From: a virus
DNA length: 27,148 nt
Direction: 5' to 3' (one strand)
Virus record (IMG/VR): IMGVR_UViG_3300028374_000055
Location: 1-27,148 of that record
Below the pieces are notes generated by a model, which worked only from the letters and a program-made list of their open reading frames with translations, ran no database searches and had not been told where the DNA came from. Shown here piece after piece: positions 2,582 to 26,864 of this stretch (positions are counted from its first letter, which is position 1; each line of letters begins with the position of its first letter). The position numbers were made by a program, and so were the translations under genes.

Positions 2582-2590
2582 TATAAATAC
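2582..2590 (-). promoter_or_regulatory. GTATTTATA box before the gp7-like gene
   Basis: Exact copy of the boundary motif (TATAAATAC on the plus strand), 15 nt before the GTG start at 2566, in the 37-nt gap after the 307-aa gene. Function unknown; see findings. Confidence 0.6.
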
Positions 2591-2603
2591 TACTAAGTGG
2601 AGA

Positions 2604-3527
2604 TTATCCATCCACACTATCAGTTATATCATCAAAGTCTTGAGAAGTGTCTATAGTAGGTCTTTCCTGCTTCACTTCATATAGTGAAACATTACCTATA
2701 TCATCTTTAATCTCATATAAATCGAATTGCTTAAGAATTTGACGGTTACCATTATTATCTAAAGTGTAATATGTTAATATACCATTATCAACATCCTTAA
2801 TTTGTTCACCACCTACATAATCAACAATCGTATCTATATCATTCTCAACAAATTCTACTTCAACTGTTACTGGATTGAAACCAGTACTACTTAGTAAAAT
2901 AGTTTGATCTGGATTACCTATAAATGGATTTGCATTTGGTTTTACATTGGAAGATGATGAAGGGGTCACTTGTAAGAATAAAAGAGAACCAGCATCATCA
3001 AATCTATATCTAACAGATGATTGAGATGTGTTACCAATATTCTCAGTCACTGGAACAACCTTATTAGAGGTTACAACGTATCTTGAGGTATTCCTTAGCT
3101 TAGTACCATCATCGTTAATATATTCTACTCTATACCCTTGTAATGCGTTATTAGCAACTAATTCACTTGGTAGATCATTAGAGTCGATAACAAGACCTTT
3201 TATGTTAGGTAATGCAGATAATACACCACAATCACTTAATTGTAATCTATATTTCTTTGGTCTTAAATATATTGTGTAGATACCAAGTTGATTAAATGTC
3301 GTAGCTGGTAGATTGAGATTATACATCCCCTCTAATAAATTTTCTTGACCAGATGCAGCCAATTCATCATCAGCAGGTAATGCAATTTCTTCAAGCAGAT
3401 CGTTAGGATCAACTCTTATAAATTCATTACTATTATTTGCTCTCGTTGATGAGTATGAGTAAAATATCTCTATATCGTTTAATGATATATCTGCAGGTCT
3501 TATATTGCCGAAACTTCCAATAGACAT
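2604..3527 (-). CDS. Putative virion/baseplate protein, 307 aa
   Basis: I do not recognise the family. The protein is acidic and beta-rich, with no signal peptide or membrane segment, and begins MSIGSFGNIRPADIS. It lies between gp6 and the gp7-like gene, in the same direction, so a structural role in the baseplate is the likeliest inference; T4 has gp8, of similar size (334 aa), in a comparable neighbourhood, but I see no diagnostic similarity. Its first nine codons are nearly repeated at 4246-4272, on the far side of the inserted endonuclease gene. This suggests its ancestral position was directly behind the 150-aa gene. Start chosen: ATG at 3527, three bases after the stop of the endonuclease gene, with the A-rich leader ATATAAATA. 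Confidence 0.75.
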   Translation of the reverse strand: MSIGSFGNIRPADISLNDIEIFYSYSSTRANNSNEFIRVDPNDLLEEIALPADDELAASGQENLLEGMYNLNLPATTFNQLGIYTIYLRPKKYRLQLSDCGVLSALPNIKGLVIDSNDLPSELVANNALQGYRVEYINDDGTKLRNTSRYVVTSNKVVPVTENIGNTSQSSVRYRFDDAGSLLFLQVTPSSSSNVKPNANPFIGNPDQTILLSSTGFNPVTVEVEFVENDIDTIVDYVGGEQIKDVDNGILTYYTLDNNGNRQILKQFDLYEIKDDIGNVSLYEVKQERPTIDTSQDFDDITDSVDG

Positions 3528-3530
3528 TAT
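3502..3530 (-). repeat. Left copy of a 29-bp direct repeat flanking the endonuclease gene
   Basis: 25 of 29 bases match 4247-4275, aligned without gaps. It holds the start codon and first codons (MSIGSFGNI) of the 307-aa gene. Differences are at 3507, 3519, 3521 and 3522; they are either synonymous or change Ile to Val, so both copies look as if they evolved as coding sequence. Confidence 0.85.
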
Positions 3531-4232
3531 TTATATTTTGTTTAAAATATTTTCAATATTATAATAATCTTTATATGATATTCTTATCAAATTAAATTCA
3601 TGTTTTTCAACAAATTCATTTTTTATTTTATCATTAAATTTTGTTTTCTCTAATGACTCAACACCCCAAACATTTTCAAAATGTTGTCTACCGTCATATT
3701 CGATTAATAAATTTTTTGAAGGTATATAAAAATCAAATGGTAAATGATTAATATTTTTACAATCAGTAAATTTTTTTTGAGGCATATAATATATACCATT
3801 CTTAATTAAATACTTCCTTATTTTTTTTTCACCTTTCGATTCATTGCATTTTGGACAACCAGAACCTTTTAAGTGTATATGTGGTCTTTGTTTAAAATCA
3901 CCATGTAATTGACATGTAATAACTACATTTTCATTTACTTTAGAATATTCAACTCTATTATAATCATATTTTTTTCCGTGTATTTTTTCTGCTTTTTTTA
4001 TAAAATCAATAGTATTTGATCTAAATAGATCACTAATTAATTCTGACCTACAATTTTGACACCCACATCCATTTAAATGATCGTATGGTTTTTGTTTAAA
4101 AAATCCATATTTATGATATTTAATTCTTATCTTACTTGTTGAATCTAGGTATAATGTTTCCGAATAATCATATTTATTACCATGAATATTTTTTGCCTTA
4201 ATGATAAACTCTTCTGTTGTAAGTTTCCTCAT
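3531..4232 (-). CDS. Free-standing homing endonuclease with DUF723-type ribbons and a Vsr-like nuclease domain
   Basis: Two repeats of about 55 residues at 9-62 and 75-129 follow the pattern F..A..IHG.KYDY...Y......HG.F.Q.P..HL.G.GC..C, the DUF723 zinc-ribbon-like unit. In the second unit the ligands are intact (CQLHG, then CPKC); the first has lost one pair (YHKYG in place of C..HG), so only one ribbon probably binds zinc. The C-terminal 95 residues contain GEKKIRKYL, FDFYIP and LIEYDGRQHF, then ND.IKN and LIRISY, the layout of Vsr/EDxHD-type phage homing endonucleases. It probably cuts a site in gene-lacking relatives, spreading the insert by repair. It sits inside the baseplate operon between two copies of the neighbour's start, and has a degenerate motif (AGTATTTAG) just before its ATG. 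It is a mobile passenger, not a virion gene. The family call is firm; the cutting site is inferred. Confidence 0.85.
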   Translation of the reverse strand: MRKLTTEEFIIKAKNIHGNKYDYSETLYLDSTSKIRIKYHKYGFFKQKPYDHLNGCGCQNCRSELISDLFRSNTIDFIKKAEKIHGKKYDYNRVEYSKVNENVVITCQLHGDFKQRPHIHLKGSGCPKCNESKGEKKIRKYLIKNGIYYMPQKKFTDCKNINHLPFDFYIPSKNLLIEYDGRQHFENVWGVESLEKTKFNDKIKNEFVEKHEFNLIRISYKDYYNIENILNKI

Positions 4233-4236
4233 ATAA

Positions 4237-4272
4237 CTAAATACTTATATTTCCGAAACTTCCTACTGACAT
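4237..4272 (-). pseudogene. Truncated copy of the 307-aa gene's start (MSVGSFGNISI-stop)
   Basis: ATG at 4272 overlaps the stop of the 150-aa gene as TAATG and reads eleven codons to TAG at 4237. Eight of the first nine residues equal those of the 307-aa protein (MSIGSFGNI). It is best explained as the original start of that gene, cut off when the endonuclease gene inserted and rebuilt at 3527. It ends 4 nt before the endonuclease ATG. Confidence 0.75.
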
Positions 4273-4275
4273 TAT
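4247..4275 (-). repeat. Right copy of the 29-bp direct repeat flanking the endonuclease gene
   Basis: Partner of 3502-3530 (25 of 29 identical); lies immediately upstream of the endonuclease gene and overlaps the stop codon of the 150-aa gene. The two copies are 745 bp apart, which gives the size of the insert. Confidence 0.85.
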
Positions 4276-4724
4276 ATATTATCTATTATATTAAAATTAC
4301 CACCACCTGCATAAAAATTAAGTTGACTTAAATTATCAATAACTCTCAATCTATATTGCCTTTCAAAAACACTCAGGGATTGTCTTGTAATAAATACATC
4401 AGATTTTACTTCTGGTCTACCCACCACATTTCCTTTTGAAAAGTCCTTAATTATTGGAAAATTAACAGATTGATTATCAGCAGTTGCATTTGTTATTGTG
4501 AATTCAAATACTGTTGCATTTAATCTATTATTATCATAAATATCTATAAATTTGATTCCACCAATATAGTAGTTAATTATAGTATCAGCACTTGACGTTA
4601 ATATATCAATACCATCATTATTTATAGTACCACCAGTGAAATATATTTGAGATAAATCACCAGTCCTTCTATACTTTCTAAGTTCTATTAATCTACTTGT
4701 AGTTGTTCCTGTTATTATTGCCAT
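4272..4724 (-). CDS. Putative virion protein, 150 aa
   Basis: Not recognised. It begins MAIITGTTTSRLIELRKYRR, is rich in Asn, Ile and Thr and looks mostly beta, with a Gly-rich stretch (YAGGGNFN) near the C-terminus. There is no membrane segment or signal peptide. It sits in the baseplate operon behind gp6, so a small baseplate or tail accessory role is inferred from position only. The start ATG at 4724 follows the A-rich leader AAAAGAAATAAAA. Its stop overlaps the truncated start codon of the neighbouring gene as TAATG. Confidence 0.7.
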   Translation of the reverse strand: MAIITGTTTSRLIELRKYRRTGDLSQIYFTGGTINNDGIDILTSSADTIINYYIGGIKFIDIYDNNRLNATVFEFTITNATADNQSVNFPIIKDFSKGNVVGRPEVKSDVFITRQSLSVFERQYRLRVIDNLSQLNFYAGGGNFNIIDNI

Positions 4725-4796
4725 TTTTATTTCTTTTAAAAAAAGATAACTATTGTCGTAATTATAATGTCACTATTCCAGTATCTAAATTAGTGA

Positions 4797-4997
4797 CTAT
4801 AAAATATCACTGATCGCTAGATTAGCACAAGGATCATTTACAACATCAAAAAAACCTAAATCAATTTCTCTTTTATTTAATGAGAATTTCATACTATAAA
4901 CAACATCGGTATCTGGAATAACTTCTATTTCATTTCCAGACACTAATTGTGTTTTAGTTTTTTGAACTATGGTTTTTTTTATAATCTCAGGTTGCAT
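4797..4997 (-). CDS. Small hypothetical protein in the baseplate operon, 66 aa
   Basis: Not recognised. The ATG at 4997 lies 2 nt after the stop of gp6, so translation is probably coupled. The sequence begins MQPEIIKKTIVQKTKTQLVS and has charged strands, no membrane segment. Beyond the stop at 4797 a reading frame shifted by -1 stays open for 12 more codons (IVTNLDTGIVTL, ending at 4762), which reads like a natural protein tail; a frameshift or a sequencing indel near the T-run at 4800-4805 is possible. The 72 nt that follow, up to the 150-aa gene, hold no other gene. Confidence 0.65.
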   Translation of the reverse strand: MQPEIIKKTIVQKTKTQLVSGNEIEVIPDTDVVYSMKFSLNKREIDLGFFDVVNDPCANLAISDIL

Positions 4998-4999
4998 TA

Positions 5000-6853
5000 T
5001 TATCTACCTAAATTTGCTTTCTTTCTCATTATTACTCTTATATCCTTTTGAGGGAATTTTATCTCAAACATACTATCTTCAGTAGAATAAACTGTTTGAT
5101 TAACAAGCTGTATTTGACCACTACTAACATCCACCAATGGTTGTTCAATAGCATTTACCGAATACTGACCACCAACTTTATTGAATGCAACTAAACTCAA
5201 TACGTTTAACACACCCTCTACATTATTAATTTGCTCAATAAGAGGTGTAATCATAATATCTTCATTCATTTGTCTATTATTAATATTGAAATAGGCAACT
5301 AATGATTGAATGATTGAGTTTGCAATTTGATTCTGATTTTGTTCACTTACAAATACTTCAACATCGAAAGCCAAATTAAAAATACGACCATCTCTAATTT
5401 CAACATAATCATTAACCATTCTTAAATTAGAAAGATATTCTGATATATTTGACTTCAATAATGTATTTGAGGTATTACTCAACTTAGCTGAAGAATCAAG
5501 CCCAAGTATTGGAATAACAATCTTATTGAATTCTCTATATGCATTCGCTCTAAATGGTGAACCATATCTACCACTCATTGAATAGACATGGAATAGATAA
5601 TCAGTAACTGTAACTGCTCTATATTGAGATGAGAAATTATATTTAATTAAGTTTCTTATCTGTTCAATGCTTAACCCATCATTACCACCTATAGCTGGGA
5701 TCGGATTATTTACAGTAAAACTTCTTCTAACCTGTTGATTAAAATCTTGTCTTGATCCACCAATATTTAATGTAAATGTTCCTGTTTGAGTTAATGAACC
5801 AGCACCCAAGTTTGATTGAGTACCACCACCTGTTCTATATCTTACAAATAATGTACTATCTCTTCTTAACTTCTGACCAAGTGCTGAGTTTTCCAAATAA
5901 TTATCAAGGAATGCTCGATTAGTCACACCTGCTTTTAAAAACCCATCCTTAAATGCATCAGATTCAGCATCACCAGCACCAAATGTTAATTCACAAAAAC
6001 CTTCATTAGTATATTCCTTAATGAATTTTTGATCTACATCAATCCATAATCCAGCTTTTAAACCAGTTTCACCAGTAGTTGCTATATTAGTACCACCATT
6101 AGGATCATCAACAAAAACTCTTTGTTGTGCCAAGTAATCAACCTCATAATATTTAAATTCAGGATTATTAAAATCAGATTCAGTTGGGTCACTAGTAAAG
6201 TTAGTACCTGCCACTAATATTACATCCTCAATGGCTGTAACGTCAGGATCAGGAAGTCTTAATCTATAGAATGGTTGTACTTCACCATCTCGAATTGTTT
6301 TTCTATATATATTACGTGAACCATTAATAACAACTTCACGCTTGGTTACGGTATAATTAATAATAATACCATTAGCATTTAACTGTGGTATTATTGATCT
6401 ATTAGGATCACCCAAGTTAGATACTGGTGAACTCCAATCAATAGTTTCAGTGGTTTCAAAAACTTGTCCACCACCAACAACTTGAGCACCAGCCAATAAT
6501 GTAGGATAATACGATTCATCTGGTTGATCACCTCTAACAGGCACTGTAACAGAAAAATCTACTACTGTTACCGAAGGTCTAAGTGCTGGAATATTGAAAC
6601 CAAGATTCTTAGCAATTCCAAGTATAGACTCTCTTTGCTGTGCAAATTCTAACTGTGTCTCTTGGAATGCTCTATCTGTATTTACACTTAGGTTATTAGC
6701 AACACCAGCATTAAGGTCAATTAATATTGAACCCACACTAGAATCAGTAAAATCTTTCAGTGTTTCAGGATAATACTCTTGAACTAATGATATTAGTTCC
6801 TCTTTAATTTCGTTAAATGTTCTTTTGTTATATGATACTCTTGAATGCTCCAT
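5000..6853 (-). CDS. gp6: Baseplate wedge protein, T4 gp6/gpJ-like
   Basis: 617 aa, close to T4 gp6 (660 aa). The N-terminus has the family pattern: a short helical region (FNEIKEELISLVQEYYPETL), then FTDSSVGSILIDLNAGVANN and a conserved stretch of AFQE-TQLEFAQQRESILGIAKNLGF type, seen in gp6/baseplate J proteins, where the first helices build the wedge ring. The middle is beta-rich with charged loops; the C-terminal third contains PLIEQINNVEGVLNV, also typical of J-like proteins. In T4 two gp6 copies per wedge link gp7 and gp53 to the inner baseplate. It lies 1 nt behind gp25 (TAA-A-ATG), the order found in T4 and in other contractile systems. There is no Shine-Dalgarno sequence (leader ACTGTATAAA). 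Confidence 0.85.
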   Translation of the reverse strand: MEHSRVSYNKRTFNEIKEELISLVQEYYPETLKDFTDSSVGSILIDLNAGVANNLSVNTDRAFQETQLEFAQQRESILGIAKNLGFNIPALRPSVTVVDFSVTVPVRGDQPDESYYPTLLAGAQVVGGGQVFETTETIDWSSPVSNLGDPNRSIIPQLNANGIIINYTVTKREVVINGSRNIYRKTIRDGEVQPFYRLRLPDPDVTAIEDVILVAGTNFTSDPTESDFNNPEFKYYEVDYLAQQRVFVDDPNGGTNIATTGETGLKAGLWIDVDQKFIKEYTNEGFCELTFGAGDAESDAFKDGFLKAGVTNRAFLDNYLENSALGQKLRRDSTLFVRYRTGGGTQSNLGAGSLTQTGTFTLNIGGSRQDFNQQVRRSFTVNNPIPAIGGNDGLSIEQIRNLIKYNFSSQYRAVTVTDYLFHVYSMSGRYGSPFRANAYREFNKIVIPILGLDSSAKLSNTSNTLLKSNISEYLSNLRMVNDYVEIRDGRIFNLAFDVEVFVSEQNQNQIANSIIQSLVAYFNINNRQMNEDIMITPLIEQINNVEGVLNVLSLVAFNKVGGQYSVNAIEQPLVDVSSGQIQLVNQTVYSTEDSMFEIKFPQKDIRVIMRKKANLGR

Positions 6854-6854
6854 T

Positions 6855-7253
6855 TTATACAGTTATCCTCAATGTTCCTTGCTCAGAAAATGTGTCTTCT
6901 GAAAATGTAAAGTTAATCACAATATCCACCTGATTTGCAGGTAGTTGATCATTTTGATCATCAAAGTCAGTATAAAATTGAACATCATCAATATCTAACT
7001 GTGGTATGAAAGTCTTTACTGTTAGTCGAATCTCTTCTTGTATATCAGCAAGTGTAAAATTATCTCTTGGTTCAAAAATATATTGTAATAAATTTGTTCC
7101 ATAGTCTGGTTGATAATAACGTTCACCTTTATTGGTGAGAAGAAGTAATATTAAATTAGAAGTGAGTGAATCTTTAGTTACCTCATTTAATAAGACAAGC
7201 CCTTTTTTAGCATTATCATCTTCCAATGGAAATTTTATATTTATTGATGACAT
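6855..7253 (-). CDS. gp25: Baseplate wedge protein gp25 (GPW/gp25 family)
   Basis: 132 aa, the same length as T4 gp25. The signature NKGERYYQPDYGTNL at residues 41-55 corresponds to the GER...P.(F/Y)G motif of the GPW/gp25 family, followed by helices (LADIQEEIRLTVKTFIPQLDI) and strands as in family members. The protein joins the sheath to the baseplate wedge and acts with gp6 and gp7 in the conserved core of contractile tails. It is the first gene of the baseplate unit: a terminator at 7282-7308 and a GTATTTATA box at 7264-7272 precede it, and the leader before the ATG is AGTAAAAAAAT. The gp6 gene starts 1 nt after its stop. Confidence 0.9.
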   Translation of the reverse strand: MSSINIKFPLEDDNAKKGLVLLNEVTKDSLTSNLILLLLTNKGERYYQPDYGTNLLQYIFEPRDNFTLADIQEEIRLTVKTFIPQLDIDDVQFYTDFDDQNDQLPANQVDIVINFTFSEDTFSEQGTLRITV

Positions 7254-7263
7254 ATTTTTTTAC

Positions 7264-7272
7264 TATAAATAC
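7264..7272 (-). promoter_or_regulatory. GTATTTATA box before gp25
   Basis: Exact copy of the boundary motif, 10 nt before the gp25 start codon and 9 nt after the end of the terminator's T-run. This is the arrangement expected if the motif opens a new unit. Confidence 0.6.
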
Positions 7273-7281
7273 ATATAAAAT

Positions 7282-7308
7282 AAAAAACCCATCAATAATG
7301 ATGGGTTT
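7282..7308 (-). terminator. Intrinsic terminator ahead of the baseplate operon
   Basis: Perfect 10-bp stem AAACCCATCA / TGATGGGTTT with a 4-base loop (TTAT on the minus strand), followed by TTTTTTA in minus orientation. It lies 20 nt past the stop of the 65-aa gene. On the plus strand the stem is followed by CGAC, so it acts on leftward transcripts only. Confidence 0.9.
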
Positions 7309-7327
7309 CGACAGCGATAAAACTTAT

Positions 7328-7525
7328 TTACTTCTTATCTAAACTATCTCCGTATCTTTCATGTAACTTAATAAACCCTTCCTCCTTATTTGTAACAACT
7401 TGTGGTTTATGAATATTAGCTCTTCTCAACATTTCCCCATAGTAATTACTAAAAAAATTCGCCATAGGATTATGTTCATCTTCATGGTCTAACGCTTCTT
7501 TAATCATATGCGGAACTGATCTCAT
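7328..7525 (-). CDS. Small hypothetical protein, 65 aa
   Basis: Not recognised. Hydrophilic and probably helical, beginning MRSVPHMIKEALDHEDEHNP. Residues 44-51 read VTNKEEGF, almost the same as VTNKDKGF in the 128-aa protein encoded just upstream, so the two may share a partner or a domain edge. It stands alone between a GTATTTATA box (7555-7563) and the terminator at 7282-7308. There is no Shine-Dalgarno (leader AATCAAGAATT). Confidence 0.65.
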   Translation of the reverse strand: MRSVPHMIKEALDHEDEHNPMANFFSNYYGEMLRRANIHKPQVVTNKEEGFIKLHERYGDSLDKK

Positions 7526-7554
7526 AATTCTTGATTTATATTAATGTTATTTAT

Positions 7555-7563
7555 TATAAATAC
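7555..7563 (-). promoter_or_regulatory. GTATTTATA box before the 65-aa gene
   Basis: Exact copy, 29 nt before the start codon at 7525. It is followed by AATAAATA, so TATTTA-TAA-TAAATA can fold into a small hairpin. Confidence 0.55.
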
Positions 7564-7584
7564 CTATGGTACGAGAAAAAGTTC

Positions 7585-7971
7585 TTATAAGCCCTTTAGG
7601 AGGTTATCTATGGCATCCAGTTCATTTAAAATGTTATCCATGTTCTGAAAAATGTTCTGCTTTTTCTGCTCATAAATTTCTTTAAAGACAACCCTTTTCT
7701 CATTACTCTGTTGCTGCATTGCTACTTGATAATCTCGTTCACGTTCTTCAATAGATGGTGCTTTAGCATTCTCCCATGTTTCATTCACTTTACCATCTTG
7801 ACCTAGAATATCTCTAAACCCTTTATCTTTATTAGTAACAGGTTTAGTCTTATCATACATTTTAGCTTGTTGATCAATAGCTCTGATTCTTTCTAAATTA
7901 ATTAATTTTTCAATATTGGATGTCTCACCTTTAGCCATTCTATTTCTTAAATCGTCAATTTCTTTACTCAT
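7585..7971 (-). CDS. Hypothetical helical protein, 128 aa
   Basis: Not recognised. Highly charged, with heptad-like helices at both ends (MSKEIDDLRNRMAKGE; NIFQNMDNILNELDAIDNLL), so a coiled coil is likely. No membrane segment. It contains VTNKDKGF, shared with the next small gene. The start ATG at 7971 is 6 nt after the stop of a 30-aa gene, and the leader is AATAAAAAATT. A virion-assembly accessory is possible from its position in front of the baseplate genes, but nothing in the sequence shows it. Confidence 0.65.
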   Translation of the reverse strand: MSKEIDDLRNRMAKGETSNIEKLINLERIRAIDQQAKMYDKTKPVTNKDKGFRDILGQDGKVNETWENAKAPSIEERERDYQVAMQQQSNEKRVVFKEIYEQKKQNIFQNMDNILNELDAIDNLLKGL

Positions 7972-7977
7972 AATTTT

Positions 7978-8070
7978 TTATTTTACTTTATATATGTAAT
8001 TATATTCACCATAGGTAAACGTTACATTTTTTATTATTAATTCTTCAGGGATTGAGATAGTACTATTCAT
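7978..8070 (-). CDS. Very small protein, 30 aa
   Basis: ATG at 8070 overlaps the stop of the 311-aa gene (ATGAATAG), and its stop at 7978 lies 6 nt before the next start. It encodes MNSTISIPEELIIKNVTFTY followed by a short tail ending KVK. It fills what would otherwise be a 91-nt gap with the same tight packing as its neighbours, which is the main reason to accept it. Function unknown; a beta-hairpin-like composition is all that can be said. Confidence 0.5.
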   Translation of the reverse strand: MNSTISIPEELIIKNVTFTYGEYNYIYKVK

Positions 8071-8998
8071 TTTTATCCATGTTTCTAATTCTATATGCAT
8101 TGAATTTCAACACATCATACTTATCATCATAATCAAGATATTTACGGTAACCATTAACAGTGAAACCATATTTACCATCATACTCATCTTTAATCCACAC
8201 TTGCTTGATATTTATCAATTCATCAAATATCTCTTTATCGTCAAGATGTTTACCAACACCATATTTTTTAGGAATGAAAAACTCCAATATTCTATCCCTT
8301 TCATACATTTTCTTCACATGAAGAAAGCTAGTCAACATTTCAATCTTATTAAAAGCATCCTTATTATCTCTAACAATACTCATTGGAAATTTACGTGCTT
8401 TAGCTTTTTCAGCAGGTGTCATAACTTCATATCCACTACCAACCTTATCAGATTTCTTCATATCTCTGAAACTAGCTAGACCTTCAATTATAGGGGTATT
8501 ATCAAACATAAACTCAATTGGATAATCATCATCCTTAGTTGTCTTATCTTTAACTTCCTGCTCCATTGCTTCAGATAATGTCATGCCATAGTTCTTGTGT
8601 TTAGGATCAAAAAATCCGTAGTGTTCAAAACGTCTACCCCACCTATCTTTCTTACCATAGCTCATACCAAATTTATCTGCTGCCATTGCAATCTTCTCTG
8701 GAGATGCTGTTTTCATAAAATGATCTGCTTTACGTAAAATTTCATAATAGTCTTTTACATATTGCTCATCACGTTCACCCTGTAACATCTTTTCAATGAC
8801 AGGATTACGATGTGTCTGGCGAATCTGCATTTTACCTTTTTTATCATCAACCATTGACTTACTTGCCATGACATCATCTTCGGTATTTTTCATTGCCAAT
8901 CCAAATCTTAAAAATAAGAGATTTACTTTAAAATAAATCTTCAGAAAAATCCTTCTGAATAATGTAACAATTCCTTTTAATATATTTTTAATCATCAA
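8063..8998 (-). CDS. Hypothetical phage protein with a basic, hydrophobic N-terminus, 311 aa
   Basis: No family recognised with confidence. The first 35 residues (MMIKNILKGIVTLFRRIFLK and following) are hydrophobic with regularly spaced Lys and Arg, an amphipathic or membrane-associating segment. The start of the folded part is at about Met36 (MKNTEDDVMASKSM), an alternative start that would remove it. The remainder is charged and mixed alpha/beta, with KKDRWGRRFEHYGFFDPKHK and a Lys/Asp/Tyr-rich C-terminus. It overlaps the 131-aa gene by 11 nt. Neighbours suggest a late or structural role, but this is inference only. Confidence 0.65.
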   Translation of the reverse strand: MMIKNILKGIVTLFRRIFLKIYFKVNLLFLRFGLAMKNTEDDVMASKSMVDDKKGKMQIRQTHRNPVIEKMLQGERDEQYVKDYYEILRKADHFMKTASPEKIAMAADKFGMSYGKKDRWGRRFEHYGFFDPKHKNYGMTLSEAMEQEVKDKTTKDDDYPIEFMFDNTPIIEGLASFRDMKKSDKVGSGYEVMTPAEKAKARKFPMSIVRDNKDAFNKIEMLTSFLHVKKMYERDRILEFFIPKKYGVGKHLDDKEIFDELINIKQVWIKDEYDGKYGFTVNGYRKYLDYDDKYDVLKFNAYRIRNMDKNE

Positions 8999-9383
8999 TT
9001 AAATCCTCCGTTAATATTTTAACATTTACAACTAAATTACCATTTCTTTTATTACGATTTATATCATGAAAAACACATTGCCAATTCAATGCCAATAGGT
9101 TATCTTGGTGATTTAACAGCGAAGTACCATCACATTCAAATCTCTTTCCGTTATACATAAAGATCGGTGAGTCAGATATAAAAACATTATCTTTTATTAT
9201 AAAATTAGCTAAAAACATATACTCATGTCTTTGTAAATAAAAAGACTTATCATTTTCATAATGTTCATTAAGAATCCTAGTTAAATATCTAAGCTTCTCA
9301 TTTATCCCTTTACCTAATTCGGATAATATTTCCTCGTTATTTTTTTTAGCTTTTGCCACCTTAACTTGTTTGGTATGCTTCAT
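8988..9383 (-). CDS. Hypothetical protein, 131 aa
   Basis: Not recognised. A Lys-rich N-terminus (MKHTKQVKVAKAKKNNEEIL) leads into a helical region and then a beta-rich C-terminal half (VFISDSPIFMYNGKRFECDG, LNWQCVFHDI). It starts within the end of the glycosyltransferase gene (23-nt overlap) and itself overlaps the following gene by 11 nt, so translational coupling is likely. No membrane segment is visible. Confidence 0.6.
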   Translation of the reverse strand: MKHTKQVKVAKAKKNNEEILSELGKGINEKLRYLTRILNEHYENDKSFYLQRHEYMFLANFIIKDNVFISDSPIFMYNGKRFECDGTSLLNHQDNLLALNWQCVFHDINRNKRNGNLVVNVKILTEDLIDD

Positions 9384-10740
9384 ATACTACAGACTCATAA
9401 AATTCAGCCCTTTTCGCTGTAACATCTTTTAAATTATATTTTTCTTTGAAATCATCATGAAGATTTTCACCAATCTTTTTACGATAATCCTCATCAAGTA
9501 TCATTTTCTTTAAATACTTAAACCAATATTTCTCAGAATTCTTTTTATTTGGGATTAAAATACAATTATGTTCATGAACACCATCAACATTATATGGTGG
9601 AATATCAGTTGTGACAATAGGGATTTTTCTTGACCAACATTCTACTTGCTTCAAGTTAGACTTCATTTTATTGAATTTATTATCAGCAAGTGGTGCTATT
9701 GAAATATCAGTCTCATCTAATACTTTAGCATAGATATTTGCTTTTTTAGTCCAACGTCTAGCAAAATTTACTTCATCACCGTATGTATCTCTTTCATATT
9801 TACTCAACCACTTTACATATTCAGGACTTTCGATGATACCATAATTATCAGTTAATATTTTTTCATATGCAAGATATACTGATTCTTCTGATTTAATATC
9901 TCTTTTATTTCTAATGAAGATATTATCACGATATACTTCCTTTATATCACTTGGAATCCCTTCAATCTTGTCAACATCACCATTACAATTATTAATTGAT
10001 TTAATGGTTTTTCTATTCCAGAGACCTCTTTTTTGAAGTTCCTTCCCAAAATCCTCATTAAATTTAATATCAGTAGTACTTCCTTGTGTATCCCAACCAG
10101 CCAATATAATTTTAAACTTACCTTTGGTTTCCTTATCTGAATTAAGTCTATTTACAACACCTTGAATTTGTTGCAAATCATTTAAATGCGATGAACCAGC
10201 ACTATATGTGATTCTTACTTTACCATTAGGGTCTGGTTTCCAATTATCTTGGAATTGTTTCATCCATGTTGGATCAACAGAATTAGGTAATACAATTACA
10301 TTGTCTTTACCAGTAACTTTTCTAATTTCTTCTGCATATAAATCAGTAGTAGTCGTAACATAGTCAGCTATTTTCAAACTATCTATAATACGCTCATGTA
10401 ATTTTTGATCTCTAGATAATGAATAAAATGGATGGGTTTTATCAAGTTCCCAATAATCATCAATATCACATACTAATGTAATACCAGCTTCTTTTAATAT
10501 TTTAGCAAGTTGTATTTCTTGATTAGTATCACCAGCAAGTTGTCTATGATAATGTATGATATGAAATGACTTAAGATACTCAATGGTCTCTGGTTTAGTC
10601 AAATCCAAGTCAGGATTTATCTCTACCCTGAATTTATCAGAATGATCTCTTTCTAATTGTTGTGCTGGTGTTGATGTACGGAAATAGTTAACACCTGCAA
10701 CGTCTCTGTTATAGAATAATACTTTAATTTTATCTACCAT
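9361..10740 (-). CDS. Glycosyltransferase, GT4-like (GT-B fold)
   Basis: 459 aa. The N-terminal domain begins with a strand-turn typical of GT-B enzymes (IKVLFYNRDVAGVNYFRTST) and contains CDIDDYWELD at 91-100. The pattern ADYVTTTTDLYAEEI...NVIVLPNSVD at 125-156 is the family's interdomain signature. The C-terminal nucleotide-sugar domain ends with SIAPLADNKFNKMKSNLKQV and a Glu-containing ECWSRKIPIVTTD, matching the conserved E-x7-E region loosely. It should transfer a sugar from a nucleotide donor; the acceptor, whether virion protein, modified DNA or host surface sugar, cannot be told from sequence. A region at 225-320 is longer than in typical GT4 enzymes. The gene opens a unit: a TATAAATAG box and a long inverted repeat sit directly before its ATG. 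Confidence 0.8.
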   Translation of the reverse strand: MVDKIKVLFYNRDVAGVNYFRTSTPAQQLERDHSDKFRVEINPDLDLTKPETIEYLKSFHIIHYHRQLAGDTNQEIQLAKILKEAGITLVCDIDDYWELDKTHPFYSLSRDQKLHERIIDSLKIADYVTTTTDLYAEEIRKVTGKDNVIVLPNSVDPTWMKQFQDNWKPDPNGKVRITYSAGSSHLNDLQQIQGVVNRLNSDKETKGKFKIILAGWDTQGSTTDIKFNEDFGKELQKRGLWNRKTIKSINNCNGDVDKIEGIPSDIKEVYRDNIFIRNKRDIKSEESVYLAYEKILTDNYGIIESPEYVKWLSKYERDTYGDEVNFARRWTKKANIYAKVLDETDISIAPLADNKFNKMKSNLKQVECWSRKIPIVTTDIPPYNVDGVHEHNCILIPNKKNSEKYWFKYLKKMILDEDYRKKIGENLHDDFKEKYNLKDVTAKRAEFYESVVYEAYQTS

Positions 10741-10741: not shown

Positions 10742-10810
10742 TTTTTATAGTTTTTTATAAATAGTCAGTAAATCCTAAAAAGTACAAAATATTATAAAAA
10801 ACTATAAAAA
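10742..10810. repeat. 19-bp perfect inverted repeat before the glycosyltransferase gene
   Basis: Arms at 10742-10760 and 10792-10810 are exact reverse complements and are made of A and T apart from one G/C pair; the spacer is 31 nt. It fills the 72-nt gap between the 141-aa gene and the glycosyltransferase, and the left arm ends just before the start codon. In RNA it would fold into a long A-U stem. A poor terminator as there is no G/C-rich stem. Confidence 0.8.
10756..10764 (-). promoter_or_regulatory. Variant box CTATTTATA before the glycosyltransferase
   Basis: One change from the consensus (C for the first G), 15 nt before the start codon at 10740. It straddles the left arm and spacer of the inverted repeat at 10742-10810. 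Confidence 0.45.
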
Positions 10811-12044: not shown

Positions 12045-12063
12045 AGTACATATAAATACTATG
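12042..12063 (-). promoter_or_regulatory. Start-codon hairpin with an internal GTATTTATA box
   Basis: CATAGTA at 12042-12048 and TACTATG at 12057-12063 (plus strand) are perfect reverse complements (7 bp, 8-nt loop). The stem contains the start codon of the ParB-like gene, and the motif copy at 12051-12059, 6 nt from the ATG, forms the loop and part of the far stem. It could hold back initiation until opened. Confidence 0.5.
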
Positions 12064-17052: not shown

Positions 17053-17080
17053 AAAAAAAGCTCATAGTAGAACTATGAGC
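17053..17080 (-). terminator. Intrinsic terminator between the Gln-rich and kinase-like genes
   Basis: Perfect 9-bp stem GCTCATAGT / ACTATGAGC with a 3-base loop (TCT on the minus strand), followed by TTTTTTT. It lies 23 nt past the stop of the Gln-rich gene and 13 nt before the kinase-like start. The boundary motif is upstream of it, not downstream. Confidence 0.85.
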
Positions 17081-17090
17081 ATCTACTTTT

Positions 17091-17099
17091 TATAAATAC
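17091..17099 (-). promoter_or_regulatory. GTATTTATA box upstream of the terminator
   Basis: Exact copy, 51 nt before the kinase-like start codon with the terminator hairpin in between. As a promoter it would feed straight into a terminator, unlike the order at 7264-7308. Confidence 0.5.
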
Positions 17100-17899: not shown

Positions 17900-17908
17900 T
17901 ATAAATAC
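17900..17908 (-). promoter_or_regulatory. GTATTTATA box before the Gln-rich gene
   Basis: Exact copy, 31 nt before the start codon at 17868, in a 57-nt gap that holds no gene and is almost entirely A and T. Confidence 0.55.
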
Positions 17909-19035: not shown

Positions 19036-19044
19036 TATAAATAC
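19036..19044 (-). promoter_or_regulatory. GTATTTATA box before the 79-aa gene
   Basis: Exact copy, 32 nt before the start at 19003 and 2 nt after the Nudix gene's stop codon. It overlaps a TATTTATAAATA palindrome, so this site also carries TATAAATA in the gene direction. Confidence 0.6.
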
Positions 19045-19046
19045 TT

Positions 19047-20425: not shown

Positions 20426-20450
20426 ATTTACAGTTTATTATAAATACGAG
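20421..20450 (-). promoter_or_regulatory. GTATTTATA box and start-codon hairpin before the 198-aa gene
   Basis: Arms at 20421-20430 and 20441-20450 pair over 10 bp with one G-U wobble, with a 10-nt loop. The inner part of one arm is the box (20439-20447, exact copy, 13 nt from the ATG) and the other arm contains the start codon at 20423-20425. Confidence 0.55.
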
Positions 20451-20461
20451 AACTTTACATA

Positions 20462-23400
20462 TTAATCACCTTCATAAAACATATATTCATCACTTGGTTC
20501 TTGTGGTTTCCTTGCTTCCACAAAATCATTGAATGCTACTTCTGCTTTAGGTTGTACCTCAAAGAGTTGTTTTTTAGATATTGATAGATCAAGACCATAT
20601 TGCTCTTTAAACGCCATGAACATTTCATTTATCATATCTCTTTCCATTAACTTCTCCCTTAGTTCATCACTAATGGTAACATCCTCACCCTCTTTCAACC
20701 TTTCAAGTATATCTTCTTCATACTTTTCTTTCTCAATTCTAATTCTCTTCTCATCAGGTGATTCAGGAATACCTTGAACATCAGGATTAATAATTTCGAT
20801 ATAATCTCCATTATGGTAACCTATAGAGTATTTGTTAAAATTCTTAATCAAAACGTAGTCATCCTTACCTATATTATCGTTAATAGATTTAAGTCTTGGT
20901 TTACCTGCTTTCTCCATTTTATCACTTAAATAGTTAAGTGCATAATCATAAATTTGAGGTGTTAGATCATTAGGATTTTCACTGAACCCATCCCAAATAT
21001 ATTTAGGATCATAACCAGTTCTATTCCAGAACTCCAACTCTTTCTCTTCTAGATACATGGATGGTTCATATTTATCATGGTTATGGTTTTTCAGTTTCAA
21101 ATCACTTGAAGTAAACTCATTCTTTTTTAACTCGACCTGTTCCACTTTCTTACCAGATGCATCAGGAACTTTAGAACGTTTAATAGATACTAAAATATCC
21201 TCTCTGATTTCTTCATCGAATCCATCTAGTAAAACCTCAGCACGTTTATTGAATGCATCCAAGTATTTGTCAACATTATAGTCACCAATCAAGTCAGGAT
21301 TTTCTTCTAAATCTTCTGTCTTAATCAAGGTGGCATTAATTGTGATTTCCTCGTCAATAACCTTACCATCGTCATCTTTAATTTTCTTGGTCTTAACATC
21401 ACCATGTGATTTACGAGTACCGTTATTCACATAATAAACCATAGAATCTAATTCAGGTGGTGGCGGTAAGAATGCATCAGCCAAATCAAACACTTCTTCA
21501 ATAGAGAATTCTTCAATCCCCTTAGACTTAATATCCTCGATTCTCTTCTTGGTAAGAGCACTTGTCTCACCATCTTCCTTGGATTTATCCTTAGATTTTA
21601 ATAACTCAATATTATACTCAATGATTTCATCATACCTTTCCTTGAAGACATTCCTAGCTGTTTTTTCACGATCAGCAATAATCAATTCCATGTGTGCTTG
21701 TTTTGCTTTAGGTCTACCATTCTTATCAGTAGCACGATTTAAGTAGTCCTTAATGGTCATCTTAAACTTAGACTTGGATGCTATCTTTTTAAGTGGTATT
21801 TGCTTATAGAAAATTTTCTCAGCGTAGTCATGGTAATAGTTAACAAAATCAACACCATCACCTTCTAAAATCATACGCATACCTTTATCCACGAAGTCTT
21901 CGATGTACTCTGACATGGTTTTACTTTTGATAGTATTACCAGTAAGCTTGATCTCATCATCCTCAGTTAATAAAGCATAGTTAATACGTGATAAATTAAG
22001 ACATGCCTTAAACTCACCATCATTATCCACACTCATGAAATCAGATGTCATCTGCTCGTCATTGAATTTCTCAATAATAGCACCAAGTCCTACTTTACCA
22101 TCATAAGTCCACATCTCTTCAATAGTACCTTCTGGTTGATCATATGATACTGTTCCATCATCGCTAATCCTAATAGTTGTTGTATCTGGAATACCAAAGT
22201 TCACACCATCTGTTACCGCAAGCAACGGCTCTAAGCCAAAGTCCTTAAACCAACTAATTGCTTGTCTTAACGACAGACGACCACTACAGGTAATTCTAGC
22301 TGCACAAATATTATCAGACCAGTTAAATGAGAATGCCGAACCAAGTGCACCAAATAAAGAGTTATTCAAAATCTTAATCGGTAACTGTTTAACCTTAAAC
22401 ATTTTACGTTCTGCCTTGGTGAAAGTATCACTAACATATTTATCATAAGTATCGTGATCAATCTCTTTCATCAATTCAACCTCTTCATCCTTCAATGGTG
22501 CACCACTAGCAAGCTTCTTATATATGTTACGAGTAGTAGTCATATACATAAGCATCTTCTTAATTACACCAGTTACATCGAACATTGGGAAGATGTCTAA
22601 CCATAGTTGAAGCATTGGATATAGTGATGCAAAGTCAATCTTTGCTACACGTTTAGTCCAGCCCTTCTTATAACAACGTGTAAGACCTCCTGAGAAGTTT
22701 TCTCTCTCATCGGCATGTGGTATTGCCAAATCATTTTCATAGCTCCAAGTAGTCATTAAAAGATTCCATATGGCAGCATTACCCATTGTGGCTACACGTC
22801 CATATGTAGTTGGTACAAGTTTGGCAAGTAAGAACGAAGATTGATTGTACAGGTTATCAACTTGTTCTGTTTCCCATAAATCGTCTAATAAGTATTGACG
22901 TAAAATATCTTTACCCTCCGTGAATTCTATTTGACCCTTTTTATCTTCATTTAATAATTTAGGTGATTGATCTCTTAACCAAAGTACAAATTCAGGATTA
23001 TTATCTAATAGATGCTTTCTAAATATCTTATATTTTTCATCAGTTAATGACTGTTTCTTTTTTTGTATTAAAAGAAAGTCACTACCAACCTCTTGAAATT
23101 CATCAGGTATTTGTTTATAATTATTATTATCTCTATTGATAAGATGAAGTTTATTATCATCCCACATTTTACCAATACCACCATCACTACCATTGATATA
23201 CATACGATTTGGCTTGGCGATACCTTCAAACTTACAAATATATTTTAGTCCTGTTTTCTTGATCTCGGTGTTTACTGCAGCAGTTTTCTTAGCAGCATGT
23301 AAAGTATCTAAAATGTTGATACCCCACATAATGGTTTTTCTATAGTTCTCAGTACTATTACCAAATTTCACAGTACCCCTTTTCTTTTGAATTACCTTGG

Positions 23401-24238
23401 TCTTACTTAATGTGGTCTGTAATTCTTTCAAATCAATACCAAGTATCTCTGCTCTCTTAAGAATATAAACAAAGTCAAACTCTTCCGAGTTATGTCCTAC
23501 GATAACGGCTGGTCTCTTTAATACAATAAGACTAAAGAAATCAATAATTAATCTACGCTCTTCCTCATCACTATCAGGATCGTTTGTTTCCAATACAATA
23601 TCAAGTCCTTTTGTATCTCTAACACCAATTGCAAATATACGTGCAATCTCAGGTCTCAAACCCCTTGTCTCAATATCGAAAGTCATTCTATTTAAATCCT
23701 TATATTCTTCGATACCTTTGAATAATCTAGCACCTGTAGAAATGAAAAATTGTTCCTCTGGTGAAACATTGAAAAATAGATCACGATTCAGATAAACCAA
23801 TTTATCATTCTTATCTCGAATTGGATTACCTTGAATATCACGTGCTACTTCATATATATCTATACCACCTTCCTTAAAGTATTGAATGATTGAATCATAT
23901 GAATCAGTACTGGTAACTTTATATGGATACCCATTTTCAAGTCTTGGGTGCTTACCAGTTTTCATCTTTTTCATCGAGATACCATGTTTTACCATCATTC
24001 TCTTGGCAAACTCTTTATCTCCATTATATAAAGCACGATTATGTGCCTTTAAATCCTTCACATAAAGAAACGGAGTGTATTTAACCTCAATAGTCTTCGG
24101 CTCTTGGTTTGGTTCTTCAATAAAACATGTCGCTTTATTATTTTTTCTATCAGTTTCAACATGAACTAAATATTTTAGATCATTATTACTACCATCAAGA
24201 AAATTCTTGATTTCATTAATTATTTTTTTGTTATCCAT
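20462..24238 (-). CDS. Family B DNA polymerase, T4-like, with variant motif C
   Basis: 1258 aa, much longer than T4 gp43 (898 aa). Exonuclease: FDIETRG with D188 and E190, then GHNSEEFDF and a YLLDD-type exo III, so proofreading residues are present. Polymerase: motif A DFASLYP (D535), motif B K622-I-L-N-N-S-L-F-G, and motif C LAVTDGVNF. In motif C the first Asp of the usual DTD is V675 and only D677 remains. An extra C-terminal region of about 450 residues after motif C is charged and includes a proline run (LPPPPEL) and the end DEYMFYEGD. It replicates the phage genome. It lies 8 nt behind the 121-aa gene. Confidence 0.9.
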   Translation of the reverse strand: MDNKKIINEIKNFLDGSNNDLKYLVHVETDRKNNKATCFIEEPNQEPKTIEVKYTPFLYVKDLKAHNRALYNGDKEFAKRMMVKHGISMKKMKTGKHPRLENGYPYKVTSTDSYDSIIQYFKEGGIDIYEVARDIQGNPIRDKNDKLVYLNRDLFFNVSPEEQFFISTGARLFKGIEEYKDLNRMTFDIETRGLRPEIARIFAIGVRDTKGLDIVLETNDPDSDEEERRLIIDFFSLIVLKRPAVIVGHNSEEFDFVYILKRAEILGIDLKELQTTLSKTKVIQKKRGTVKFGNSTENYRKTIMWGINILDTLHAAKKTAAVNTEIKKTGLKYICKFEGIAKPNRMYINGSDGGIGKMWDDNKLHLINRDNNNYKQIPDEFQEVGSDFLLIQKKKQSLTDEKYKIFRKHLLDNNPEFVLWLRDQSPKLLNEDKKGQIEFTEGKDILRQYLLDDLWETEQVDNLYNQSSFLLAKLVPTTYGRVATMGNAAIWNLLMTTWSYENDLAIPHADERENFSGGLTRCYKKGWTKRVAKIDFASLYPMLQLWLDIFPMFDVTGVIKKMLMYMTTTRNIYKKLASGAPLKDEEVELMKEIDHDTYDKYVSDTFTKAERKMFKVKQLPIKILNNSLFGALGSAFSFNWSDNICAARITCSGRLSLRQAISWFKDFGLEPLLAVTDGVNFGIPDTTTIRISDDGTVSYDQPEGTIEEMWTYDGKVGLGAIIEKFNDEQMTSDFMSVDNDGEFKACLNLSRINYALLTEDDEIKLTGNTIKSKTMSEYIEDFVDKGMRMILEGDGVDFVNYYHDYAEKIFYKQIPLKKIASKSKFKMTIKDYLNRATDKNGRPKAKQAHMELIIADREKTARNVFKERYDEIIEYNIELLKSKDKSKEDGETSALTKKRIEDIKSKGIEEFSIEEVFDLADAFLPPPPELDSMVYYVNNGTRKSHGDVKTKKIKDDDGKVIDEEITINATLIKTEDLEENPDLIGDYNVDKYLDAFNKRAEVLLDGFDEEIREDILVSIKRSKVPDASGKKVEQVELKKNEFTSSDLKLKNHNHDKYEPSMYLEEKELEFWNRTGYDPKYIWDGFSENPNDLTPQIYDYALNYLSDKMEKAGKPRLKSINDNIGKDDYVLIKNFNKYSIGYHNGDYIEIINPDVQGIPESPDEKRIRIEKEKYEEDILERLKEGEDVTISDELREKLMERDMINEMFMAFKEQYGLDLSISKKQLFEVQPKAEVAFNDFVEARKPQEPSDEYMFYEGD

Positions 24239-24246
24239 CTTCTTAA

Positions 24247-24612
24247 TTAAAGAGTTTCCACTTTCAATTTTTTCATTCTCTTACTAAATGAGTATTGCTT
24301 ACCCATATATATGTATTTTCCCTTTCTATCGATTTCTTTATTATCGTCAGGAAATATACCACAAAACCATAATGCTGTAACCATGTTTTTTGCTTTTATT
24401 TGAATGAAATCAATACTTTTATCACTTACAATGTCAAAATCAAGATAATCAACATCATCCATTTTAGTGATAGTCATTGTTAGGTATTCATATATTTCCT
24501 GATAAAGGTAAATAATATTTTCTTCATCTAAAAGTTTTTCACCATCTTCCATCATAGCAGCCAATAAAATATCTGCTAATGGATTGGTATCAACATCAAA
24601 TAGTTCACCCAT
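24247..24612 (-). CDS. Hypothetical acidic protein between helicase and polymerase, 121 aa
   Basis: Not recognised. Acidic N-terminal half (MGELFDVDTNPLADILLAAM), then strand- and helix-like segments (DDVDYLDFDIVSDKSIDFIQ; TALWFCGIFPDDN) and a basic end (SFSKRMKKLKVETL). It overlaps the helicase gene by 8 nt and is 8 nt from the polymerase gene, so it is probably a replication accessory by position, with no motif to prove it. Confidence 0.65.
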   Translation of the reverse strand: MGELFDVDTNPLADILLAAMMEDGEKLLDEENIIYLYQEIYEYLTMTITKMDDVDYLDFDIVSDKSIDFIQIKAKNMVTALWFCGIFPDDNKEIDRKGKYIYMGKQYSFSKRMKKLKVETL

Positions 24613-26386
24613 GCTTTTCCTTAATTTTCTTTATGACTTCATCTAATACAGATTCACTCACATCAGTCTTATAATCTTCATTATCAATTACTTTTCTAAT
24701 TTCTTTCCTCTTTGATTCAAGAGTATGAAATACAGCTTCATCAATAGTATCTCTAAATATTAAAGGATATATATGTACTGTTGAATCCTGCCCAATTCTA
24801 TGAAGACGATCACTTACTTGATCATATTCACCAACTGAATACGGCAATGTCAATATAAGCAATTTATCAGCAGCAGTTAATGTTAACCCATAATTACAGG
24901 TTTGTATCGATCCAAGAAATATATCTAACCCACTATCAGGGTCTTGGAATTTCTTTACTATATCAGCTCTTTCTTCAACACCCTGATCACCAGTATGTAA
25001 TGCAGAAATATTAGGATACATCTTATGTATCTCCTTTAATATCATCTTAAATTGATCGACAATTACCAACTTACCACCCTCTTGGATAATGCTATCAATT
25101 ATTTCTTTAGCATGTCCAATTTTTAATGCCGAAGTATATTGTCTTAATCTAATTAAGATCGTCAATGCATTAGTAGTTTCAGAAGAAAATATATCATTGG
25201 CAACACCTTGCTCTATCTTTTCATACTCTTTCATTTCGGCACTACTCAATTCAAGCATAAGTTTTTGATATACCTTATCAGGTAGATTTAAAACATCTTC
25301 CTTCCTCTTACGATAAGTATACGGTGCAATCTTATGGAAAAGCTCTTCTAGATTCTGTTTATCAATGTCGGTATCATATCCATACCCATATGGATCATAT
25401 TTCATACCACAATAGTATTCATAGAAATGCGTTTTAGTTGCAAAATCTATTTCAGAAATTTGATTTAAAACGGTATATAATTCAAATGCTCTATTTGGTG
25501 CTGGTGTACCAGATAAAAATACCTTACTTGGTTTACCTTTAAAGAATTTATCATTAGATAATCTTTTGAAATTCTTATATGTATTCGAGGACTGGTTTTT
25601 CAATCTATGGGATTCATCACATATCACCGCATCTATCTTATCAACACCCAAGTCACTAAATTTCTTATCCATCTTCTTCTTATCCGATGGATTGAAATAT
25701 TCATAGTTCATAATGATATACTTGGAATCTTCAATAGAATGTTTATTCTTTTTCCACTTAACGATATGTGCTTTTGAATCGGTGAATTTTTCAATCTCAT
25801 TGTAGAAGTTAAATTTCAATGAGTTAGGTGTAATCACGAAAACCTTATCATAACCACTCATCTCAACATATGCAATACTACAAATTGTTTTCCCTAAACC
25901 CATCTCTAATGATAATAGAGCACTTTTAGCATGTCTTAAATATAATGCAGCAACAATTTGATGTGGATATAATTCGATATGATCAAGTAAACCAGCATGT
26001 ACTTCATCTGAATACTGTTTGAAGTTTTTCTCATATTCAGACTTCATTTCCATCCAGAACTTTTTGTTCTTGGTTAGTTCTACTATTTTTCTCTCAGTCT
26101 CTTTCTTTTCTTGAATTACTTTATCAAATTCTTTTTTGATACGTTGCTTTTCTTCATGAGAACCAAAATCAAAATGGACTTTATCTGATCCTCTGAACAT
26201 AGTGATAAGTTCATAAAGTCCTTTTACATTTAAAGTCCAAGTTCTATCCTTATAACTACGGTTTTTGGTATCCAGCAATTTAATACTGTCAATCATTTCT
26301 TTATTAAAATCGAAATGAAGATCATATTTTTTTGCTCTAGAAGAAGGTCTTCTACATTTAACTATAAACTTGTTAGTATCCACCAT
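24605..26386 (-). CDS. SNF2-family helicase/translocase, HARP-like N-terminus (SMARCAL1 type)
   Basis: 593 aa. Walker A LEMGLGKT (160-167), motif II DESH (257-260), SGTPAPNR (292-299) and motif VI SDRLHRIGQ (525-533) are all intact, so ATPase activity is expected. QxxDRxHRIGQ and the spacing are SNF2-type, not UvsW. Residues 20-60 (FDFNKEMIDSIKLLDTKNRS...DRTWTLNV) resemble the HARP domain of SMARCAL1, which anneals or remodels forked DNA. It may therefore stabilise or reverse replication forks in place of T4 UvsW/Dda. It is followed by the 121-aa gene with an 8-nt overlap. The leader is GCTAACAAAAAAAT; a TATATTTG box lies 17 nt upstream. Confidence 0.85.
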   Translation of the reverse strand: MVDTNKFIVKCRRPSSRAKKYDLHFDFNKEMIDSIKLLDTKNRSYKDRTWTLNVKGLYELITMFRGSDKVHFDFGSHEEKQRIKKEFDKVIQEKKETERKIVELTKNKKFWMEMKSEYEKNFKQYSDEVHAGLLDHIELYPHQIVAALYLRHAKSALLSLEMGLGKTICSIAYVEMSGYDKVFVITPNSLKFNFYNEIEKFTDSKAHIVKWKKNKHSIEDSKYIIMNYEYFNPSDKKKMDKKFSDLGVDKIDAVICDESHRLKNQSSNTYKNFKRLSNDKFFKGKPSKVFLSGTPAPNRAFELYTVLNQISEIDFATKTHFYEYYCGMKYDPYGYGYDTDIDKQNLEELFHKIAPYTYRKRKEDVLNLPDKVYQKLMLELSSAEMKEYEKIEQGVANDIFSSETTNALTILIRLRQYTSALKIGHAKEIIDSIIQEGGKLVIVDQFKMILKEIHKMYPNISALHTGDQGVEERADIVKKFQDPDSGLDIFLGSIQTCNYGLTLTAADKLLILTLPYSVGEYDQVSDRLHRIGQDSTVHIYPLIFRDTIDEAVFHTLESKRKEIRKVIDNEDYKTDVSESVLDEVIKKIKEKHG

Positions 26387-26403
26387 ATTTTTTTGTTAGC
26401 AAA

Positions 26404-26411
26404 CAAATATA
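26404..26411 (-). promoter_or_regulatory. Possible Bacteroidota-type promoter -7 box TATATTTG
   Basis: Matches the TAnnTTTG -7 element described for Bacteroidota promoters, 17 nt before the helicase ATG in a 52-nt gap. No clear TTG-like -33 element at the usual distance, so it is weak. It is the best vegetative-type promoter candidate I found in the window. Confidence 0.3.
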
Positions 26412-26438
26412 GTAAAAATAAAATAAAGAGTAAAGTTT

Positions 26439-26852
26439 TTACACTACGCTAGTTTTTGTTGATGACTCACCAATAATAATATTGATGTCACTATCGGTTG
26501 GGAATGTGATCTTACCACAATAATCACCAAGAAAATCTAGCTTGAACTCAGCCATATATCTACCAGCTTTTTTTGTTTGATTTTCTTTGAATCGATATGC
26601 TAAAGTATATTTACTTTCATCTAATTGATAATAATCATCAGCTTCATTTACTATTAATTTACCACCATCATTAGCAACATGATATATACCACTTTCAGAA
26701 TCTCTCATAGAAAATGTTACAGCAACGTTTTCCAGCATCTCATCGGTGATATCATATTTCTCTCTCATTCTCTGACTTAAAGAAAATTTTACTTCTGGAA
26801 GAGTGGAATGTTGTTTTATAAAAATATTGTTGTTTCTAAATGTAGTGCTCAT
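26439..26852 (-). CDS. Beta-rich protein, perhaps virion or baseplate accessory, 137 aa
   Basis: Not assigned to a family. Strand-turn composition (FIKQHSTLPEVKFSLSQRMR; VAVTFSMRDSESGIYHVAND; RYMAEFKLDFLGDYCGKITF) resembles Ig-like or BppU N-terminal modules used in phage adhesion devices. No signal peptide or membrane segment. Its ATG at 26852 is only 3 nt from a GTATTTATA box, leaving no room for a leader RNA if that box were its promoter. The next downstream gene is the SNF2 helicase, 52 nt away. Confidence 0.6.
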   Translation of the reverse strand: MSTTFRNNNIFIKQHSTLPEVKFSLSQRMREKYDITDEMLENVAVTFSMRDSESGIYHVANDGGKLIVNEADDYYQLDESKYTLAYRFKENQTKKAGRYMAEFKLDFLGDYCGKITFPTDSDINIIIGESSTKTSVV

Positions 26853-26855
26853 AAT

Positions 26856-26864
26856 TATAAATAC
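26856..26864 (-). promoter_or_regulatory. GTATTTATA box abutting stop and start codons
   Basis: Exact copy; directly after the stop codon of the right-edge gene (26865) and 3 nt before the start codon at 26852. The tightest case in the window. Confidence 0.55.

Follow-up and report, generated by a model that had tools for sequence, protein, structure and literature searches.

The nine-nucleotide box GTATTTATA, which recurs upstream of genes in a 27,148-nt stretch of viral DNA (hereafter, the window), is very probably a diverged T4-type late promoter that would be read by host RNA polymerase together with a gp55-like sigma factor in large Bacteroidetes-type phages. The evidence comes from sequence comparisons and concerns the box itself, its orientation, position and conservation, the classes of genes that it precedes, its exclusion of other promoter classes and the presence of a single candidate sigma gene in each near-complete genome checked.

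Nine exact copies of the box were counted window-wide on the plus strand (as TATAAATAC) and none on the other strand, the predicted genes of size being all on the minus strand, where the box reads GTATTTATA. A tenth copy, at 10756, reads CTATTTATA on the gene strand, i.e., one change from the box, and this variant is the form used throughout G017, a distant jumbo phage with 33% gp6 identity. The count thus confirmed an earlier reading made from the letters alone (the sequence-only reading), which had listed ten copies, nine of them exact and the tenth differing at one base, each in a gap (Table 1). By chance, 0.92 exact copies were expected over both strands, and none of 100 dinucleotide shuffles reached nine; all exact copies (9/9) were intergenic in a window of which gaps make up approximately 4%. 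Thus, the earlier reading, which was to fall if the motif were equally frequent in coding DNA or shuffled sequence, withstood that comparison. With one mismatch allowed anywhere, 36 copies were found versus 26.5 expected, and this small excess places the signal in the exact core. By the list of open reading frames, 15 gaps are 20 nt or longer and nine of them contain a box, while the copy at 26856 lies in a 12-nt gap; gaps of this size at 4232/4272, 4724/4797, 7971/8063, 12828/12905, 15072/15108 and 26386/26439 are without one, so that the description of a box before nearly every unit was somewhat generous. A scan of the window for sigma-70 elements (TTGACA/TATAAT) gave numbers at or below shuffle expectation.

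Table 1. Copies of the box in the window and the start codons that they precede.
Form	Position	Strand	Distance to ATG (nt)	Downstream start or gene	Remarks
Exact, GTATTTATA	2582..2590	-	15	ATG 2566, structural-region gene	Kept in 12/14 distinct relatives
Exact	7264..7272	-	10	gp25-like baseplate gene 6855-7253, unit gp25-gp6...	Kept in 18/18 other relatives
Exact	7555..7563	-	29	ATG 7525	Compared with relatives
Variant, CTATTTATA	10756..10764	-	15	Glycosyltransferase gene 9361-10740	
Exact	12051..12059	-	6	Listed ATG 12044	Compared with relatives
Exact	17091..17099	-	51	ATG 17039	Odd case
Exact	17900..17908	-	31	ATG 17868	Compared with relatives
Exact	19036..19044	-	32	ATG 19003	Compared with relatives
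Exact	20439..20447	-	13	ATG 20425	Kept in 6/6 relatives
Exact	26856..26864	-	3	ATG 26852, unit of SNF2-type helicase 24605-26386 and DNA polymerase 20462-24238	Predicted leaderless start

Individual sites differ in their surroundings. A terminator hairpin (7309-7284) directly precedes the box at 7264, and an in-frame ATG 9 nt beyond the listed ATG 12044 would give the box at 12051 the usual spacing. At 17091, a terminator-like hairpin with a T7 tail (17080-17060) was noted between box and ATG, which counts against a promoter at this site; hairpin and box together (17060-17099) may act as an attenuator or yield a short RNA, or the box may belong to something else. Near the first site, the opening codons of gene 2604-3527 (ATGTCTATTGGAAGTTTCGGCAATATAAG) are repeated with hardly any change at approximately 4265, beyond gene 3531-4232. 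The latter is of DUF723/DUF559-like endonuclease type, with many copies in relatives, and has the appearance of a mobile endonuclease that entered at the start of gene 2604-3527, the 5' end having been re-created.

The window comes from the genome of an uncultured myovirus, of which it is a fragment, and encodes gp6- and gp25-like baseplate wedge proteins, a DNA polymerase, an SNF2 helicase and a CCA-adding enzyme. Megablast and blastn searches of phage records with the window gave no match. The gp6-like protein found contigs of up to 366 kb, the box-carrying relatives ranging from 299 to 366 kb. Its more remote matches were the cultured Flavobacterium phage immuto, Microcystis phage Mel-JY01 and the 484-kb uncultured phage LR756508. 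The host is presumably of Bacteroidetes type, judging from the host of immuto and from promoter elements of the form TATATTTG (TAnnTTTG class; PMC6847099). Identity with the bS21 phages (PMC9723584) was rejected, no ribosomal S21 gene being found above the cut-off in the relatives. Genes in the relatives were called by a simple custom caller, and sequences were analysed in 20-kb pieces with loss of units at piece edges.

The strand bias along gene direction held throughout the close relatives. GTATTTAT was the top upstream 8-mer in G004, G006 and G013, and first or second by excess over antisense; exact copies were intergenic in 60 of 78 cases (77%) in G004 and 47 of 58 (81%) in G006, where gaps make up 11% and 7% of the sequence, respectively. 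The count by strand and distance to starts that had been proposed with the sequence-only reading gave, in these relatives, a sense-strand bias and distances mostly of 11-20 nt. More distantly, G017 uses CTATTTAT in 52 upstream regions and immuto uses (A/C)TATTTAT. When 407 intergenic sites were compared, clear conservation next to the box was confined to A at positions 12 and 13 (i.e., AA 3-4 nt past the box); no conserved -35 element was seen upstream, where positions -13 to -15 were weakly T-rich at most. The comparison of relatives that had likewise been proposed showed the box to be kept at orthologous starts. Of 81 distinct regions upstream of orthologues of the boxed genes, 64 had a box, as opposed to 5 of 124 for unboxed genes, one repeated endonuclease-like gene family being left out. 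Among same-strand gaps, 28% of those of 20-60 nt and 22% of longer ones had a box, as did 31% of divergent starts and 1.8% of packed junctions; as a control, the same pattern read in antisense gave 3/321 and 3/1027.

Two claims of the sequence-only reading were not supported. The box had been said to face the wrong way for a T4 late promoter, the plus-strand form TATAAATAC being indeed an exact match to the T4 late core. However, T4's TATAAATA and the gene-strand TATTTATA are reverse complements, the conserved flank (AA, positions 12-13) occurs only on the gene side, and in relatives the gene-strand form lies mostly 11-20 nt 5' of start codons. The box had also been judged too close to some ATGs to serve as their promoter. 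In fact, an ATG 3 nt after the 9-mer (4 nt after the 8-mer) was over-represented, with 23 cases versus 8 at neighbouring offsets (P=1e-5), and a second, broad zone of ATGs lay 11-20 nt after the box. The sharp peak suggests transcripts that begin with the AUG or close to it, an arrangement that would account for the site at 26856. Host-type TATATTTG boxes clustered at -14 to -11 from the ATG and, with the numbering of Flavobacterium johnsoniae promoters from T-12 to G-5 (PMC6847099), therefore also put transcription initiation on the ATG or close to it. For the box, transcription would begin at or near position 12, counted from its first base, and would yield very short 5' leaders; some mRNAs, including that of 26852, are probably leaderless or nearly so. 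Leaderless or near-leaderless starts of this kind remove the objection of insufficient distance. Bacteroidetes are without Shine-Dalgarno signals (PMC6847099); AGGAGG Shine-Dalgarno-like signals were noted 5' of approximately 20 genes of G017 (L099-L116), unlike the other relatives.

The genes that follow the box are largely those of the virion. In the 299-366 kb relatives the box lies 5' of terminase, portal, prohead protease, the unit of the major capsid protein (MCP), sheath, tube, gp25 and gp6 units; it was found at tail tube in 4/4 genomes, at gp25 in 9/9 and at sheath in 3/4 (the fourth being cut at a piece edge), as well as at TerL, portal and protease. The distant jumbo phage and immuto likewise carry it 5' of virion genes, the immuto sites being at terminase, portal, sheath, tube, hub and baseplate-adjacent genes. 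Some non-virion units are boxed too, namely the helicase/DNA-polymerase unit (26856) and the glycosyltransferase (10740), and as the former unit is not virion, "late" may mean "middle-late". Boxed genes tended not to have a promoter of the TTGTAAC-N18-TATAAT or TATATTTG/TATTTAGGTA class as well (odds ratio 0.25, P=6e-11). At PhoH the promoter is of the TTGTAAC/TATAAT class, and primase has TATATTTG in four genomes, both genes being found mostly with classes other than the box, and the candidate late sigma gene is headed by the TTGTAAC/TATAAT class in two genomes. In immuto, 15 of 16 TATTTAGG-class sites were at small genes of the 60-77 kb region.

Two features of these other classes were also noted. 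The TTGTAAC class has the form TTGTAAC(A/C)TTTT-N-CGTATAAT(C) with 18-bp spacing (relatives L039-L089 and L123-L127), and some ATGs lie exactly 5 nt past it, with a sharp peak 5 nt after CGTATAAT; it may be read by a host sigma factor or by a phage ECF-like one. In immuto (L134-L136), many small genes at 60-77 kb are preceded by an early-type motif, TATATTTAGGTATCAATAATTAAAACA, whose conservation extends well past the -7 element.

A candidate reader was found in a gp55-like family with exactly one member in each near-complete genome checked, which was traced outward from G013 to G004, G006, G017, immuto, LR756508 and Mel-JY01. An alignment of 133 members matched a T4/cyanophage gp55 profile over 130 columns (hhalign, E=4.9e-5), and T4 gp55 alone gave a collinear but weak match. 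In the AlphaFold model of the candidate (pLDDT 76, pTM 0.41), the most probable PDB structure matches were sigma factors (SigI6, probability 0.89; sigma-E region 2, TM 0.69 on target), with E-values that were not significant (best Foldseek E only 0.18). The match to the PHROG late sigma was weak (E=0.5), no Pfam match was obtained and a PDB sequence search with the sigma profile gave none. The relationship to gp55 would thus be a remote one. Contigs fetched by the sigma alone, a link independent of the window, carried the box in the sense orientation, with 59 sense versus 1 antisense copies of GTATTTAT in the close clade, a count inflated by one conserved locus, and 44 versus 3 copies of TATTTAT in the distant clade. 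The gp55-like gene is present in LR756508 although no clear box was seen in the 100 kb examined, which counts against the link of sigma and box. In immuto the gene (NC_055915.1:78174-78872), whose product is gp118, is annotated "hypothetical". Besides the gp55-like gene, up to two PF04542-type sigma genes per jumbo genome were noted above the cut-off in G004, G006, G013, G017 and smaller contigs. In box-using relatives, one such gene lies close to the baseplate cluster.

A phage-encoded RNA polymerase was rejected as reader, and host RNA polymerase was taken as the enzyme, because the beta-subunit model (PF00562) found no gene in any of the seven relatives searched (7/7 contigs), control genomes being positive. 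In the proposed scheme, with expression timing taken from gene function, early and replication genes would start from host-type promoters (TAnnTTTG and TTGTAAC-N18-TATAAT), and a diverged sigma factor with gp55-like region 2 would be made among them. This factor would direct host polymerase to a late core, (G/A/C)TATTTAT(A/T)-N3-AA, without a -35 element and pointing along the genes, so that virion-gene units and some others would fire. In immuto, 5' ends of the TATTTAGGTAT class would precede box-driven ones. It is conceivable, if rather doubtful, that the candidate represents a separate late-sigma branch whose own C-terminal domain replaces the clamp-binding tail of T4, firing a clamp-independent late promoter with routine leaderless or near-leaderless mRNAs in hosts without Shine-Dalgarno signals.

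Other readings of the box fit these results less well. The PF04542-type genes in jumbo relatives, with one near the baseplate cluster, could point to a late promoter read by an ECF-like sigma factor with region 4 in place of the gp55-like protein. This is unlikely: immuto uses the box and has a gp55-like gene but no PF04542 match, the box is present in contigs selected solely for their gp55-like gene, and region-4 ECF factors normally use a -35 element, of which the box has none. The sequence-only reading had offered an RNA signal, an antisense promoter and a promoter of a new type, and the last of these came close to what is proposed here. An RNA-level signal in the 5' leader, whether translation enhancer or processing site, would suit a short box that often lies 11-20 nt before the ATG in Bacteroidetes, which lack Shine-Dalgarno signals (PMC6847099). 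However, a signal for translation would be expected before the internal genes of units as well, and only 1.8% of packed junctions have it; moreover, the box excludes other promoter classes, its distance from the ATG ranges from 3 to more than 100 nt, and no room is left for a leader where it abuts the ATG, all of which makes this reading very improbable.

That the plus-strand form drives antisense transcripts as a T4-type late promoter is scarcely credible despite its exact match to the T4 core, since the AA flank is conserved on the gene side only, it is the sense start codon that the spacing follows, and strand bias tracks gene direction, divergent gene pairs included. Repetition of a short box across the genome would also be expected of a binding site for some other protein (replication, packaging or a repressor operator), but the strict sense orientation and the position at unit heads, before virion genes in relatives, leave this explanation hardly any weight.

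With the box read as a diverged T4-type late promoter, widespread and largely uncultured large Bacteroidetes-type phages would gain a directly testable map of three promoter classes and a named late-sigma candidate, and their transcription units and timing would become readable from metagenomic contigs. The variants of box and sigma would form natural pairs for the study of specificity change in late sigma factors.

No description of GTATTTATA, TATTTATA or late promoters of Flavobacterium or Bacteroidetes was found among openly accessible papers. Among known systems, the Bacteroidetes sigma-ABfr promoter (TTTG ... TAnnTTTG) resembles the box in its distance to the transcription start and also occurs in the present phages (as TATATTTG), but the box is without TTTG and thus without the -7 element TAnnTTTG, and the host-type elements stand at other genes and exclude the box. 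Late promoters of the jumbo phages phiKZ and AR9 also have short motifs but are read by phage-encoded multisubunit RNA polymerases, with phiKZ late starts at TATG (PMC5312081), whereas no beta-subunit gene was found here (PF00562, seven relatives). The T4 late promoter (gp55/gp33/clamp gp45) shares with the box a single -10-like AT box, no -35 element, a position before virion genes and, with the candidate reader proposed here, the putative use of host polymerase with a phage sigma factor. (G/C)TATTTATA equals T4's TATAAATA at 6 of 8 positions. In T4, gp55 accommodates A-12 and A-8 of the non-template strand in deep pockets, and its pocket for A-9 is shallow (PMC7892883); A-12 and A-8 are retained in TATTTATA, while -10 and -9 are changed (two central bases, AA to TT). 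The T4 box spans -13 to -6 (PMC1524935), and a start at position 12 would put the present box 2 nt nearer the start. Further differences are an additional outer base, for which the preference (G, C or A) depends on the lineage, the downstream AA and an extra C-terminal helical region in the candidate sigma. Divergence of gp55 and box together has a precedent, although with another box and another host group, in the Aeromonas phage Aeh1. Its late promoter, CTAAATA, is paired with a diverged gp55 (PMC1524935). The box was not assigned to the T4 type in the strict sense because the TATAAATA consensus at -13 to -6 is itself absent; on present comparisons it most likely works as a T4 late promoter does, as a variant rather than a strict member.
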